From Halobacterium sp. CBA1132 (GTDB lineage: Archaea > Halobacteriota > Halobacteria > Halobacteriales > Halobacteriaceae), in contig NZ_BCMZ01000001.1 in the NCBI RefSeq assembly GCF_001485535.1, positions 1,364,001-1,428,000 on the forward strand: a stretch of 64,000 nt of DNA, in the 5' to 3' direction. The position numbers and the translations under genes were made by a program. The stretch's first letter is position 1, and each line of letters starts with the position of its first letter. The notes below the pieces were generated by a model that did not search any database, had not been told where the DNA came from, and saw only the letters and a program-made list of their open reading frames with translations. Positions 16,673 through 25,734 of this stretch are shown one piece after another.

Positions 16673-17965
16673 ATGACGTACAAGTACAGCCCACGATACC
16701 CGCTTCTCCCGACCGATGAGCACGACGAGAAGCTCTCGTGGACTGTTGATGTCGTGCGGCAACTCTACAACGACCGACTCAAACGCTTCAACGAAATTCC
16801 GGAAGACCAAGGAACGCTCCGCCAACGCGTCCGCAAAGCCCGAAACGAACTTCCGGCGATGAAAGACTGGTGGAGCGACCTCAACGACGTCTACTCCACC
16901 GTCCTTCAGAACGCGGTGATGCGCATCCACGACAACAAAGAGAGTCTCCGCGCACTCAAACGGAAGGGATACGATGTCGGTGAGTTACGGTGGAAATCAC
17001 CACGCGACTTTCGGTCGTTCACGTACAATAAGAAGGGCTTCGAGCTCGACAAGAAGAGCGGCCCCGACGGGTACGCTGAACTCATACTGAAGAAAGTCGC
17101 CGGCGACACCATCACGGTGCCAATTCGCCTCCACCGTGACCTCCCCGCCCACGAGTCAATCCAACAACTCACCGTCAAACAAGATGCCACCGGTGAGTGG
17201 TTCGCCACGTTTACCATCAAAACTGAAACACCGCCCAAACCCGACGTTGATGAGATCAATCCAGAGGACTGCGTCGGAATTGATCTTGGTATTCTGAACT
17301 ACATCACCGACTCAGACGGCCGCGCAATCTCCCGTCTCGACCTTTCCGACGAACGAGAACGCCTCGAACGGGAACAGCGCGCGCTCTCTCGGAAGGACCA
17401 TGGGTCGAACAACTGGGAGAACCAACGCATCCGCGTCGCAGACGTGCACAAGCGGATGACGAACAAGAAAGACGACTTCAAGCACAAACTCGCGCATTTC
17501 TACACGACGCAGTACGACGCGGTATTCCTCGAAGATCTTGACGTGAAAGGGATGCTCGAAGGAGCTGGGAACGCGCGGAACAAACACGAAGTCGGGTGGC
17601 GCGACCTCATCACGGTGTTTGAGCATCACGGCGAGAAGAACGGCTGTCACGTCCTCACGGTTGACCCAGAAGGGACGACGAAGGAGTGTGCGTCGTGTGG
17701 GGTGGTTTCGGAGAAACCGTTGTGGGTGCGCGAACACGCGTGCCCAACGTGCGGGTTTACGGCCGATCGTGACGAGAACGCCGCATACAACGTGCTGGCG
17801 CGCGGATTGAAAGAGCTAGGAGTGGTTCACTCCGAAGGGACGCCTGTGGAGACTGCGACCGCTACGTCCACCAACGGAGGCGATACCTCCGTTCGTGTGG
17901 ATGCAAGTCGTGTCGTTGAAGCAGGAAGCCGCGCCCTCAAGGCAGCGACGGTAGTCGCTGAGTAG
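16673..17965 (+). CDS. tnpB: TnpB (IS605/IS1341-type RNA-guided nuclease), apparently intact
   Basis: The 430-residue protein is an IS605 OrfB/TnpB. The RuvC nuclease residues are all present: D204 in GIDLGILNY, E287 in FLEDLDVKGM and D367 in DRDENAAYN. The zinc ribbon is C339/C342 and C357/C360. Family members are guided by a right-end omega RNA to cut DNA and help retain the transposon. No tnpA lies nearby, so this is a tnpB-only element needing TnpA in trans. Codon use is less GC-biased than in the neighbours, in line with mobility. The stop codon lies inside the 3' hairpin repeat, as expected where the omega RNA overlaps the end of the gene. Confidence 0.93.
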   Translation: MTYKYSPRYPLLPTDEHDEKLSWTVDVVRQLYNDRLKRFNEIPEDQGTLRQRVRKARNELPAMKDWWSDLNDVYSTVLQNAVMRIHDNKESLRALKRKGYDVGELRWKSPRDFRSFTYNKKGFELDKKSGPDGYAELILKKVAGDTITVPIRLHRDLPAHESIQQLTVKQDATGEWFATFTIKTETPPKPDVDEINPEDCVGIDLGILNYITDSDGRAISRLDLSDERERLEREQRALSRKDHGSNNWENQRIRVADVHKRMTNKKDDFKHKLAHFYTTQYDAVFLEDLDVKGMLEGAGNARNKHEVGWRDLITVFEHHGEKNGCHVLTVDPEGTTKECASCGVVSEKPLWVREHACPTCGFTADRDENAAYNVLARGLKELGVVHSEGTPVETATATSTNGGDTSVRVDASRVVEAGSRALKAATVVAE

Positions 17966-18684: not shown

Positions 18685-18693
18685 CAGCAGGTG

Positions 18694-19058
18694 TGCTCGG
18701 TCAGGGATTTGAACCCGATGCCAGACCTCGCTGCGCTCGGTCTGCCGTGGTTCAAATCCCTTCCCTCGACGTACACGCCTATGAACGCGAAGCGACACAG
18801 CAGTCGCTTCGCGGTTCGGTGTCAGAGTAGTGCTCGGTCAGGGATTTGAACCGATACCAGACGTGCTCGCTCACTACGTTCGCTGTGCGCGACTGGTAGG
18901 GTTCGAACCCTTCGCTGCGCGCTTTCCTCACTCCGTTCGAAAAGTGCTCGGTCAGGGATTTGAACCGATACCAGACGTGCTCGCTCACTACGTTCGCTGT
19001 GCGCGACTGGTAGGGTTCGAACCCTTCGCTGCGCGCTTTCCTCACTCCGTTCGAAAAG
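18694..19058. repeat. Repeated tRNA-Glu 3' ends with hairpin spacers; two exact 114-bp tandem units
   Basis: Three extra copies of the tRNA-Glu 3' end (TGCTCGGTCAGGGATTTGAA on this strand) begin at 18694, 18831 and 18945, before the real gene at 19059. Units 18829-18942 and 18943-19056 look identical base for base. In the first interval GGGATTTGAACC (18704-18715) faces GGTTCAAATCCC (18749-18760) as a perfect 12-bp inverted repeat. In the tandem units the opposing box is the palindrome GGGTTCGAACCC (18899-18910 and 19013-19024). The spacers carry CTCGCTNNGCTCG-like tracts. The open frames here are by-products of a 114-bp (38-codon) period. Confidence 0.88.
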
Positions 19059-19133
19059 TGCTCGGTCAGGGATTTGAACCCTGGTCGTCGGCTCGAAAGG
19101 CCAACATGATTGGCCGGACTACACCAACCGAGC
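19059..19133 (-). tRNA. tRNA-Glu (anticodon TTC)
   Basis: The minus strand folds as a full cloverleaf of 75 nt: acceptor GCTCGGT/ACCGAGC, D-arm, anticodon stem TTGGC/GCCGA with the loop CTTTCGA giving anticodon TTC, and the T-arm GGGTTCAAATCCC. The discriminator base is A. CCA is not encoded. It reads GAA codons and partly GAG. The 3' end is followed by several repeats of its own last 20 or so bases, see the repeat feature. Confidence 0.95.
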
Positions 19134-19189
19134 GACACTCGTTCGTACCCGGGAGAATTGTTTAAACGTGTCGTTCTGCCGTGGCCGTG

Positions 19190-21314: not shown

Positions 21315-21740
21315 GTGAACACGCAACAACGCGCCGCCGCCCTCGGTCTCCTCGTGGGACTGGCCCACACTGCGATGCGGCTGTTCGTCCTCGAATCGCT
21401 CACCGGCGGCTTCACGACTGCGACCACACAGTTGGTCCTCCAGTCGCTGGTCTCCACGCTGCTGTCGCTGGCCGTGATTCCCGGCCTCCCGCTGTACGGC
21501 GCGTGGCGGATGGGCGCCCGCGACTCCCCGACGCGACTCGCCGCGTTCGTCGGCCTCGGCGCTGGTGCCGCCGTCGTCGTCAGTTACCCGCTGCTCACGG
21601 CTATCACCGTCGGCGCGCCGTTCGCGGAGGCACTCGGCATTCGATTCATCGGGCCGTACCTCGTGAACGGCCTCTCGCCCGCCGCGTACAGCGGCGTCGG
21701 CGCGCTCGCGGGGTTCCTGATCGCGGAGCGAAACGCGTAG
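21315..21740 (+). CDS. Four-helix membrane protein, hypothetical
   Basis: The 141-residue protein has about four membrane helices (roughly 7-25, 38-62, 76-98 and 112-136) and small connecting loops. It starts at a GTG. No motif links it to a known family. It is flanked by the fatty-acid enzyme and by the AT-richer islet that starts immediately after its stop, which makes it the left chromosomal neighbour of that islet. Confidence 0.6.
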   Translation: MNTQQRAAALGLLVGLAHTAMRLFVLESLTGGFTTATTQLVLQSLVSTLLSLAVIPGLPLYGAWRMGARDSPTRLAAFVGLGAGAAVVVSYPLLTAITVGAPFAEALGIRFIGPYLVNGLSPAAYSGVGALAGFLIAERNA

Positions 21741-21767
21741 ATTCCCGCGGCGGCTTCGCCCGGTTAG

Positions 21768-23756
21768 TCACCCCCACCGCTGACGAATAAACGAGAACAG
21801 TTCATTCTCTTCCCTCTCTGTGATAACTTCTTCCGTGAACTCATTGCTGTTGAGTTGCCGCAAAACTTGAAGTGAGGAGTCACCATATGCATTCTGTTGC
21901 TTTTCAGCATAGGATGAGTTATTGTTCGAATTATTCTCTTCAGCACTCAAAACGACAAGATTCCCGAGTCTATTTTTATTCCGATTGTGGTTTTCAAGCT
22001 TGTGTCCCGCTTCAGCATGTTTCGGCACAATATGTTCTACTTGGAACCTATCTCGGAACTGGTGGTATGGGGGTAGAGACAAAACCCCAGATTTGTTTCT
22101 GAGCGAACGCTCATATTCATACATAATGAATTTCACAAGCTCAGTCTTCCTTATTCCGCCCCATCCTGGGCTAAATTCACCATCTAGTACATCTTCCTCG
22201 GAAAGGTATCCTGAGACCACATCATCAATAGGAGCTATCCGTTCGCGTTTCTCACTAATTCTCTCTATGATATTTCGTACTCCAAGCTCCTTTGACTGAT
22301 GACCAACGTACCGGTCCGCATCAGAGTTGAAAACGGTTGGAACTTCGTCATCCTCTACATCTGACCAATATAGATCGTTAGCTCCGGATTTTAGAGTGTT
22401 TGAATAAGCCTGTGGACCGTGCGACATCACGAGACTATGTCCGAAGACAAGCTGCTCTAATTCAGATACTATATCCGCAAATTCTTGCGAATCAACACCA
22501 AACTTTTCAGCAACTGTGATAAGTAGTGGAGCAGCCGCGTTTCGTACACCGGGGTGGAGGTATATCAGCTGTATCTTCCGGACAGTTTCGTCCAGCTGCC
22601 CATCGGTCGAGCCGAACTCGTTGCCAGAATACTTCTCTGCAAATTTATCTCTGTCTGTGAGATACGGGTAGCGCTCAGAGAATCGCTCTAGGGAGTCTAT
22701 ATATGGTCGAATGAACGCCTCAAAGTCGTCCCTTTGAACGCTTGCATAATCGTCTAGGTCGGAGAGCCGTCTGTGAATCTCCGATGGGCCAGGACGCTTT
22801 GCCCGGGAGTCTGATCGTTCACTAGTAAATACCGACCAATGAATTCTCACGAGGTCGTCAATTTCGGCGTCGGAGAAACCGTCATGTACGGAGACGTTCT
22901 GGACGATGTTATTGAATTTCTTGTAGATGTTTTCGGAGTCCAGAGTCTTAGATTGTGAAGCACAGTAAACGAGATGGCTACGAACCTTATCGTGCAGTCG
23001 CAGGCCGCGGCCCCGGTTGTTTATTACCTTGAACATCCGGGCTGCTTCATCAACGTCTTCAACGACCTTCACATTCACCTCAAATCTCTGGGTTATAATT
23101 CGGACGATATTTTTGAGGAATTTATAATAGATCGCGTGCTCACGGTCACCGTCGCATTTCTGTGATTTCCACTCCTGTAGCTTAGATTTAGTTACCCTCT
23201 TTGCAGCGAGGACTTTTCGCTCCGTTTCAACCAAATCTGACTTTTCGGAATACCGTTCGACATTCCGGCCACCGATTATTGCCCCATAATACACATCTTC
23301 TGCAAGCCCGCCTAGTTGAAGTCGCGGCAAATCCTCATATTCTACGTACTTTGAACGGATATCTGAACTCCGTTCCTCGATATCCGACTGCATATTCTCA
23401 CCAACATCTGCTTTCGCCGCAATATCCTTCATTTCCTCAATAATCGCAGAAATGATGACCGTGATTGTAGCAAGCCTCTGCTGGCCGTCAACTATCGCAA
23501 ACTGTGTGTAATCCTCAAAGTCAGTCGGCTCAATTGACCCGCGTTCCTCAAGTACAATCGTTCCAAAATAGTGGTCTACCTTCTGGGCCTGGTCTGCAGC
23601 ATCCCTGTTTTGCTCGTAGACAAACTCAATATCGTCAAGCAAGTCGTTAACATTCGACTCCTCCCACGCGAAGTCCCTCTGGTAATCAGGTATCTCGAAA
23701 TATGACTGGCTGAATACTGATGAAAGCGAGAAGTTGTCATCTGGATTTCCGTCCAT
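21768..23756 (-). CDS. GmrSD-like DUF262/DUF1524 (HNH) protein, probable type IV restriction or antiphage factor
   Basis: The 662-residue protein has an N-terminal DUF262 domain with IPDYQRDFAWEESN (22-35) and the hallmark FAIVDGQQRLATI (about 87-99). The C-terminal DUF1524 HNH-type nuclease has VEHIVPKHAEAGH from residue 573, RLGNLVVLS at 596-604 and a distal NSSYAEKQ. Fused GmrSD enzymes hydrolyse NTPs and cleave modified phage DNA; related DUF262 proteins also work with phosphorothioate systems. All expected motifs look intact. It is the first gene inside the AT-richer islet. The next gene upstream on the same strand lies about 340 bases away and could be a partner. Confidence 0.85.
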   Translation of the reverse strand: MDGNPDDNFSLSSVFSQSYFEIPDYQRDFAWEESNVNDLLDDIEFVYEQNRDAADQAQKVDHYFGTIVLEERGSIEPTDFEDYTQFAIVDGQQRLATITVIISAIIEEMKDIAAKADVGENMQSDIEERSSDIRSKYVEYEDLPRLQLGGLAEDVYYGAIIGGRNVERYSEKSDLVETERKVLAAKRVTKSKLQEWKSQKCDGDREHAIYYKFLKNIVRIITQRFEVNVKVVEDVDEAARMFKVINNRGRGLRLHDKVRSHLVYCASQSKTLDSENIYKKFNNIVQNVSVHDGFSDAEIDDLVRIHWSVFTSERSDSRAKRPGPSEIHRRLSDLDDYASVQRDDFEAFIRPYIDSLERFSERYPYLTDRDKFAEKYSGNEFGSTDGQLDETVRKIQLIYLHPGVRNAAAPLLITVAEKFGVDSQEFADIVSELEQLVFGHSLVMSHGPQAYSNTLKSGANDLYWSDVEDDEVPTVFNSDADRYVGHQSKELGVRNIIERISEKRERIAPIDDVVSGYLSEEDVLDGEFSPGWGGIRKTELVKFIMYEYERSLRNKSGVLSLPPYHQFRDRFQVEHIVPKHAEAGHKLENHNRNKNRLGNLVVLSAEENNSNNNSSYAEKQQNAYGDSSLQVLRQLNSNEFTEEVITEREENELFSFIRQRWG

Positions 23757-24094
23757 GGATGGAGATTATGTAACATACACTTATCAGTTACGTATTATGG
23801 TATAAAATATATCACGTTGATATAGGGAGAGGGTATCCTAAGTTTCCACTATTGCTTCCGAATGATCAGATGCTCCAGGAAACCAAGCAGAATGATACAA
23901 CCACCAAAGTTCGAAATCACGATTCAAAACCGCTTGTGGAATGGCTCCACGAAATAGCTGCTATTGAAACGCAATCCGGTGTAATAACAAATAGAAGTAT
24001 CTCCGTTTCCCTCTGCGTGTTTTTGCATATACAAACTCGGAAAATGCTCCTGATGTGATAAACTCCATTTCAATAGTTTTCAAACACTACTGTC
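23757..24094. other. AT-rich gap between the two islet genes
   Basis: These 338 bases contain the probable promoter of the DUF262 gene (minus strand; TA-rich around 23790-23815) and no convincing gene. An open frame of 68 codons on the plus strand (23852-24058) has no recognisable pattern and probably is not used. No repeat or RNA structure stands out. Confidence 0.5.
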
Positions 24095-25072
24095 TCAGTT
24101 AGAGTATTCGTCCTCGTAGCGATTAATCACGAAGCTCAGGAACGCACTCACCTGATGCAATAATAGAAGCGCGTAATCTTGGTCAAACTCCCCATGGCGC
24201 TTTCTGTCTCCACCAGTCCTCTGAACCCCAATCTGAATACCACTCAGAATTTGCTCCCACTCCGCGAACATCGCCTGATTCGGATCAAATAGACCGTGGT
24301 CCTTCATCGAATCTAAATAACTACTGACACCATCCCCCTCCTCATTCCAATCACGTTCCTCAACACAGATCTTGAGTAAGACGGCCTCTACGCTATTGTA
24401 GAGTTTCTCTGCGATTATGAACGAGAAGTTTTCGTTCTTATAGTAGCTCCATGCTTCATCATAGGTGCTTAATTCGTCAGCCCACCGTTCTTCTTTCGCA
24501 AGTGTACGGATTTGCTGGTCCGCCTCGATTACCGACTCATCAGCGAGTCGTTCGAAATGAAGATTGAATTGCTTTACAGGTCTCTTACCAGTTGAATGAC
24601 GGGAACCGTATCCGCTTGTACTTCGGTGGTTTTGGATTTTCTCTGCGAAGTTGTCAACAGTCTCACTATCAGGACGAAGACGTAGTAAGATACCCTCCTC
24701 CACGAGGATACGCCTGAGCTTCGAATCGAGATCAACTAGTGCCTGTGGGTCAGGCGACTCGCTACTGAGATTTGAAGGCTCCCATAATTCATTCAACAGT
24801 ATCTCGACCAGAGTAAGAACATCATCAAGACTTTCTTCTAATATAAAACGCCCCAGTGATTCCTTTGCAGGTCTCCTATTAGCGGTTTCAAAATACTCCA
24901 CAGACATACCTGTTTCAGTCAGATATTCTGAATAGGCTGTATCAATTTCACCTCTCGTAGCATTCTGATTTATTGAATACGCAATACGCCTTGCAGCCTT
25001 CTCAGTCAGACCTTCGTGAATCCTCTGCTCGGGTTCAGAAGTTCGATTCTCCCACGGAATCCAATCAGACAT
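24095..25072 (-). CDS. Unknown islet gene, possible HEPN/abortive-infection-type protein
   Basis: The 325-residue protein is mostly helical. Residues 1-60 contain TEKAARRIAYSINQNATRG, the middle is rich in acidic helices, and the C-terminal 120 residues carry ILSGIQIGVQRTGGDRKRHG and a long hydrophobic helix LLLLHQVSAFLSFVINRYED. The R-x-x-x-H-like spacing before that helix recalls HEPN or abortive-infection C-terminal domains, but the match is weak. It is not a family I can name. The ATG at 25072 is preferred over an upstream start because the extension overlaps the divergent glycosylase promoter. Being on the same strand as the GmrSD-like gene, it may be part of one defence unit. Confidence 0.55.
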   Translation of the reverse strand: MSDWIPWENRTSEPEQRIHEGLTEKAARRIAYSINQNATRGEIDTAYSEYLTETGMSVEYFETANRRPAKESLGRFILEESLDDVLTLVEILLNELWEPSNLSSESPDPQALVDLDSKLRRILVEEGILLRLRPDSETVDNFAEKIQNHRSTSGYGSRHSTGKRPVKQFNLHFERLADESVIEADQQIRTLAKEERWADELSTYDEAWSYYKNENFSFIIAEKLYNSVEAVLLKICVEERDWNEEGDGVSSYLDSMKDHGLFDPNQAMFAEWEQILSGIQIGVQRTGGDRKRHGEFDQDYALLLLHQVSAFLSFVINRYEDEYSN

Positions 25073-25155
25073 GGATGCGATGTTACTCTGATAACACGTA
25101 AACCTTCTACTCGACACCGCAGATTCATCAATACACAGCGCCTCAATCAGTGCAA

Positions 25156-25734
25156 ATGAACGAGCAAGCCGTCGAATACCTCCAAGACGACCCACACCTC
25201 CGCCCAGTCATCAACGAACACGGCCCAGTAACCATCGAACCAGCCGACGACCTCTTTCAACGAATGGTCGTCTCCATCATCCGCCAGCAAGTATCAATGG
25301 AATCCGCCGCAGCGACACGAGAACGCCTCTACAACACCGTCGACGTTGAACCAACCACAATCCTCGAAACAGACACCGACACCCTACACGACGTCGGCCT
25401 CTCCCAGCAGAAAGCATCCTACATCCATAACATCGCAGAAGCATTCCTCGAAAACAACTACTCCCGCCAATACTTCGACGGAATGAACGACGAAGAAGTG
25501 ATGAACGAGCTAACCGAAATCAAGGGCGTCGGACCATGGACCGCCCGAATGCAGCTAATATTCGGGCTCGGCCGCGAGGACGTCTTCCCAGTGGGTGACC
25601 TCGGCATCCGGAAGGGGATGCAGTCGCTGTACGGCGAGGACACGACGCGCGCGGAGATGCGCGACATCGCGGGGCACTGGCAGCCGTATCGGTCGTACGC
25701 GTCGCTGTACGTCTGGCGCGCCTACGAGGGGTAG
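25156..25734 (+). CDS. AlkA-like DNA-3-methyladenine glycosylase (mosaic gene)
   Basis: The 192-residue protein belongs to the HhH-GPD superfamily. It has IIRQQVSMESAAATRERL near residue 40, the helix-hairpin-helix EIKGVGPWTARMQLIFGLGR (about 119-138) and the catalytic Asp in VGDLGIRKG. It removes alkylated bases from DNA to start base-excision repair. Up to about base 25555 the codons are islet-like (GAA, CAA, CTA, CGA). From TTCGGGCTCGGCCGCGAGG onward they are the host's GAG/CTG/GCG style. The gene therefore looks like a recombinant of two alleles yet stays open throughout. A GTG lies two codons upstream of the chosen ATG. Confidence 0.88.
   Translation: MNEQAVEYLQDDPHLRPVINEHGPVTIEPADDLFQRMVVSIIRQQVSMESAAATRERLYNTVDVEPTTILETDTDTLHDVGLSQQKASYIHNIAEAFLENNYSRQYFDGMNDEEVMNELTEIKGVGPWTARMQLIFGLGREDVFPVGDLGIRKGMQSLYGEDTTRAEMRDIAGHWQPYRSYASLYVWRAYEG

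Follow-up and report, generated by a model that had tools for sequence, protein, structure and literature searches.

Two genes encoding proteins of defense type lie side by side in the genome of Halobacterium sp. CBA1132, and the question raised by this locus was whether they work together as one system or are neighbors by chance. A sequence-only reading of the window (the whole stretch of 64,000 nucleotides that was analyzed) had taken them for a candidate two-gene defense islet, in which a conserved second gene would define a variant GmrSD system.

Genomic Context of the Islet

The gene of the GmrSD-type DUF262/DUF1524 nuclease (662 aa) occupies positions 21768 to 23756 of the window on the reverse strand, and the gene of the AbiJ-like protein (325 aa), called here the partner, positions 24095 to 25072 on the same strand. 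The partner gene is located 338 bp upstream of the nuclease gene (intergenic gap, 23757 to 24094). In view of this gap and of an AT-rich, promoter-like stretch that immediately precedes the nuclease gene, an operon was not obvious, and the two genes are likely to be transcribed separately, as judged from the sequence. A search of the islet for structured RNA families found none.

The GC content was about 0.46 across both genes versus about 0.68 around them, and their GC3 was 0.46–0.48, as against about 0.9 in the flanking genes. Furthermore, the segment was absent from the same-genus genomes, four of which (L101–L104) presented an empty site that placed the inserted foreign segment at positions 21763 to 25550. 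The foreign look previously ascribed to this DNA was thus confirmed both by composition and by comparison with congeners. The left flank is formed by a native gene for a small membrane protein (21315 to 21740, forward strand), with 73–81% amino acid identity to its counterparts in four congeners. Several genomes of the genus carry it directly beside the gene of an HhH-GPD (AlkA-like) DNA glycosylase. When the window was aligned with the four congeners, homology extended to approximately position 21762 and resumed inside the glycosylase gene, the two homology blocks being separated by about 25–55 bp in those congeners. The left edge of the insert fell about 20 bp before the site of the native glycosylase start codon, and the right edge within the glycosylase gene.

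The Putative Modification-Dependent Nuclease

The 662-aa protein was assigned from Pfam domains, PADLOC profiles, relatives in the PDB and residue conservation. Residues 13–262 matched GmrSD_N (PF03235, E 2.6e-27) and residues 540–650 matched GmrSD_C (PF07510, E 4.4e-16), both above the curated cut-off. The DGQQR motif (D90–R94) was invariant across ten aligned nuclease sequences, as were residues E574, H575, P578, N593, R596, N599, N608, N613, and K619 of the His-Me (HNH) domain. The earlier description of a full-length DUF262/DUF1524 protein with both motifs intact was therefore correct, and the protein is composed of an N-terminal NTPase/sensor domain, bearing the DGQQR motif, and a C-terminal His-Me (HNH) nuclease domain, the activities of both being predicted.

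In its domain order, DGQQR and His-Me motifs, single chain and solitary gene, the protein was like the Type IV enzymes GmrSD and BrxU, from which it differed in belonging to a haloarchaeal subfamily, in its low identity to the characterized enzymes and in having no adjoining BREX genes. The PADLOC matches were to Orf5/HEC-06/SspE-like profiles, and the closest solved structures by sequence were those of the phosphorothioate-sensing proteins DndI (PDB 9jfl, E 3.2e-15) and SspE (E 1.9e-5); an invariant Tyr25 of the window nuclease, within an IPxYQR segment, stands at the place of the phosphorothioate-sensing Tyr25 of DndI. Nevertheless, no dnd or ssp operon is adjacent, and the DndC profile TIGR03183 had no match in the host genome at E ≤ 0.001. 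Since DndC was not detectable in the host, phosphorothioate self-marking was considered less likely than a Type-IV-like action on modified DNA of foreign origin, and by analogy the protein is most likely a Type-IV-like modification-dependent restriction enzyme.

The sensing of modified DNA by DUF262 and the nucleotide-driven activation of DUF1524 have been described for GmrSD, BrxU, SspE and DndI (PMC10952713, PMC11662687). If the window protein behaved similarly, its DUF262 domain would meet modified incoming DNA, the recognized mark being either a modified cytosine (as for GmrSD/BrxU) or a phosphorothioate (as for SspE/DndI), and would bind and hydrolyze nucleotide; once licensed in this manner, the His-Me nuclease of DUF1524 would nick or cut the modified DNA.

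Five close full-length DUF262 relatives (63–67% identity), from five different genera, were solitary genes in unrelated surroundings, and their DNA similarity to the window nuclease started at the ATG, the upstream DNA being unrelated. The nuclease family was also sought in viral contigs, where none was found. A second, distant DUF262 gene, with a 686-aa open frame, was noticed in the same genome (G000:C1:815102-815995, L002). Additionally, distant DUF262 genes (about 30% identity) in L063 (10951–12791) and L067 (6289–8197) had two adjacent genes in common (clusters c73 and c74), and a conserved neighborhood of another kind may exist in that distant subfamily.

The HEPN-Like Partner and Its Family

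The identity of the second gene was approached through family conservation, an AlphaFold model and a fold search. The upstream open reading frame of 325 residues was present as announced and belongs to a genuine conserved family of about 290–340 aa, whose most conserved part was the C-terminal half (residues 171–324). The window protein alone gave no significant match in Pfam, NCBIfam, PADLOC or the PDB. Among 16 members of the family, three matched AbiJ_NTD4 (best E 9.7e-5), which the window protein did not, and one matched DUF7014 (E 0.01). A match of the helical N-terminal region to the gasdermin-B PDB profile (E 0.0064) was attributed to chance or to common helical composition, and a match to the Pfam model GUN4 (E 0.08) to chance.

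The AlphaFold model of the partner, built from 11 sequences, was mostly helical and of good confidence as a whole (pLDDT 83.9, pTM 0.79). In the Foldseek search, the high-probability matches were HEPN domains or HEPN-like (4nqf, probability 0.97; 2q00, probability 0.92), at weak E-values of 0.65–1.4. The HEPN-like end that had been suspected from the letters was in this way supported, though not proven, for the C-terminal half (about residues 171–324). A conserved Arg was found in the family 2–3 residues before the invariant H293; the canonical RX4-6H spacing was absent, the earlier basic residue being R or K and farther away, and the motif loop of the model (residues 289–292) had a pLDDT below 50. 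Because of this unusual spacing, the low-confidence loop and the weak fold E-values, the protein was named AbiJ-like or HEPN-like, and not a proven HEPN RNase. Some other all-helical fold, for example that of a sensor without RNase activity, would agree with the weak E-values and with an Arg and a His only 2–3 residues apart where 4–6 is canonical, but it is unlikely, given that the high-probability structural matches were HEPN domains and that some members of the family matched Pfam models of AbiJ type. Judging from the model, the partner most likely comprises a helical N-terminal domain and a HEPN-like C-terminal domain, and is AbiJ-like.

A long N-terminal domain followed by a HEPN-like C-terminus would liken the partner to the AbiJ family (AbiJ-NTD plus HEPN; PMC3710099), as do the matches of some members to AbiJ_NTD4 or DUF7014 and the occurrence of the family alone or near restriction-modification genes. 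The partner family differed from AbiJ in its non-canonical spacing and in that only haloarchaeal members were found here, and the window protein itself fell below the Pfam thresholds. A wider scan of genome contigs with the single partner sequence gave no match, and the same scan with the partner alignment detected 13 loci, all of them haloarchaeal; none was found in viral contigs. The defense genes observed beside partner relatives were a Type IIG restriction-modification gene and an SNF2 helicase (L022), a DrmD-like helicase (L024), a Type I methyltransferase (L025) and a GajB-like helicase (L029), and AbiJ proteins have been described near restriction or other defense genes (PMC3710099). 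A haloarchaeal family of AbiJ-like, HEPN-like proteins was thereby documented, which Pfam and PADLOC hardly recognize and several members of which lie near other defense genes. In Natronomonas aquatica, a second partner copy (L038, 1267–3769) was broken up by a segment that contains an ORF of 397 aa and is probably an insertion sequence.

By analogy, the 325-aa protein most likely acts in abortive infection in the manner of AbiJ. An infection cue would be sensed by the helical N-terminal domain, which would also restrain the C-terminal HEPN-like domain; once released, the latter would attack RNA and lead to abortive infection. For this protein and for the nuclease alike, the biochemical activities and infection cues proposed here are those that we infer from characterized relatives.

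Search for an Association Between the Two Genes

The genome sample comprised 394 genomes of one order, in which DUF262 homologues were counted at E ≤ 1e-20. Partner homologues were present in 17 of the 394 genomes and DUF262 homologues in 16, and the window genome was the only one with both families. About 0.6 common genomes were expected by chance among the remaining ones, where none was observed, so that there was no sign of an association between the two families. Furthermore, when neighborhoods of up to 20 kb were compared by BLAST and profile search, no DUF262 gene was adjacent to any other partner locus, and a partner homologue was found near none of 14 DUF262 loci. At the partner locus L024, a distant DUF262 gene was located about 7 kb away, in a defense island.

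The proposal of a conserved second gene defining a variant GmrSD system was consequently not upheld, as there was no repeated adjacency in this sample and only the window genome had both families: partner homologues do not lie beside DUF262 genes, the DUF262 gene normally occurs alone, and the partner occurs elsewhere. Both genes are members of already known kinds of defense gene, and these results indicated, with a probability of about 0.85, that they are two independent solitary genes which became chance neighbors on one acquired insert. Each protein would be self-sufficient, neither requiring the other. A system of two genes, with the HEPN-like protein serving the GmrSD-like nuclease as a partner or as its RNase effector, would be in keeping with the adjacency of the genes, their common strand and single insertion, and the defense type of both proteins, but it is highly improbable in view of the 338 bp between the genes and the solitary state of the nearest DUF262 relatives, and it was rejected because, in the sampled order, neither co-occurrence nor adjacency was found outside the window genome. 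Adjacency in a single genome is weak evidence, and the locus is removed from the candidate two-gene defense systems. With both genes on the same strand of one insert, co-regulation of the two independent genes in this one organism is possible.

The Hybrid Glycosylase Gene and the Arrival of the Islet

The HhH-GPD glycosylase gene at the right edge of the insert (forward strand) was a hybrid, of which the 5′ two-thirds (25150 to 25550) are foreign, with 58–74% nucleotide identity to the same-genus genes, and the 3′ third (25551 to 25734) is native, with 81–93%. In G142, the genome of another species of the genus, the native glycosylase gene was split by an element of about 4 kb (L100, 5410–9435), and the split point lay within about 10 bp of the point at which the window gene switches (about 25550). 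In addition to a tyrosine recombinase (Pfam E 4.9e-20), this element encodes a membrane protein, what may be a regulator, and a foreign DNA glycosylase that is complete and is the closest relative of the window glycosylase (68%). The 11-bp core GTTCCTCATGT was present as a direct repeat at both ends of the element (L100, 9435–9425 and 5420–5410). The wider search for glycosylase genes covered the best matches, among which split genes with weak fragments may not appear.

Protein-coding genes are already known as attachment sites in archaea (PMC8371274), and the G142 element was like the archaeal integrative elements reviewed there in its tyrosine recombinase, its direct-repeat core and its replacement gene copy. 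Its target is the gene of a DNA glycosylase, a word absent from that review. These observations point to a DNA-repair gene as a place where foreign DNA lands in the genomes of this genus.

Two explanations were weighed for the arrival of the islet. According to the first, which comes close to an even chance, the cargo and a divergent glycosylase would have entered without any element, by recombination that was homologous at the right end, within the conserved HhH-GPD region, and illegitimate at the left end. The single switch point of the hybrid gene, the lack of an integrase and the absence of repeats at the insert ends agree with such an exchange, which leaves the coincidence with the G142 junction to chance or to local conservation. 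That coincidence suggested the second explanation, in which the islet would be what remains of a small integrative element with the AlkA-like glycosylase gene as its target and a glycosylase copy of its own; the defense genes would have been its cargo, and the integrase would have been lost later. The turn from foreign to native at about position 25550 speaks for it, together with the splitting of the G142 gene at that place by a recombinase element with a glycosylase and terminal repeats. Nevertheless, the islet differs from the archaeal elements in that no integrase ORF was found in it; no direct repeat of at least 9 bp joined the insert ends and no duplicated core was present, the window junction sequence was unlike the G142 core, and the left edge falls outside the glycosylase gene. 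Moreover, the G142 integrase was without close relatives elsewhere in the genome sample (best identity, 39%). Because the window has neither integrase nor duplicated core, homologous exchange fits about as well, and descent from an element is a plausible reading at somewhat less than even odds.

A broader and more tentative proposal is that the glycosylase gene in this genus serves as an entry point for small elements with a replacement glycosylase and swapped cargo, including solitary defense genes. The islet would then be an integrase-less relic, and its HEPN-like cargo would represent an archaeal AbiJ-like family with unusual active-site spacing.

Other Features of the Window

Upstream of the tRNA-Glu gene (19058–19133), partial copies of stretches around this gene were observed (18690–19134), with matches of 24–60 bp and a spacing of about 114 bp, and these are possibly tRNA-gene fragments left by integrations. 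Additionally, a 430-aa ORF on the forward strand (16673–17965) resembled, by eye, a protein of the TnpB/IS200-IS605 type with a zinc-ribbon C-terminus.
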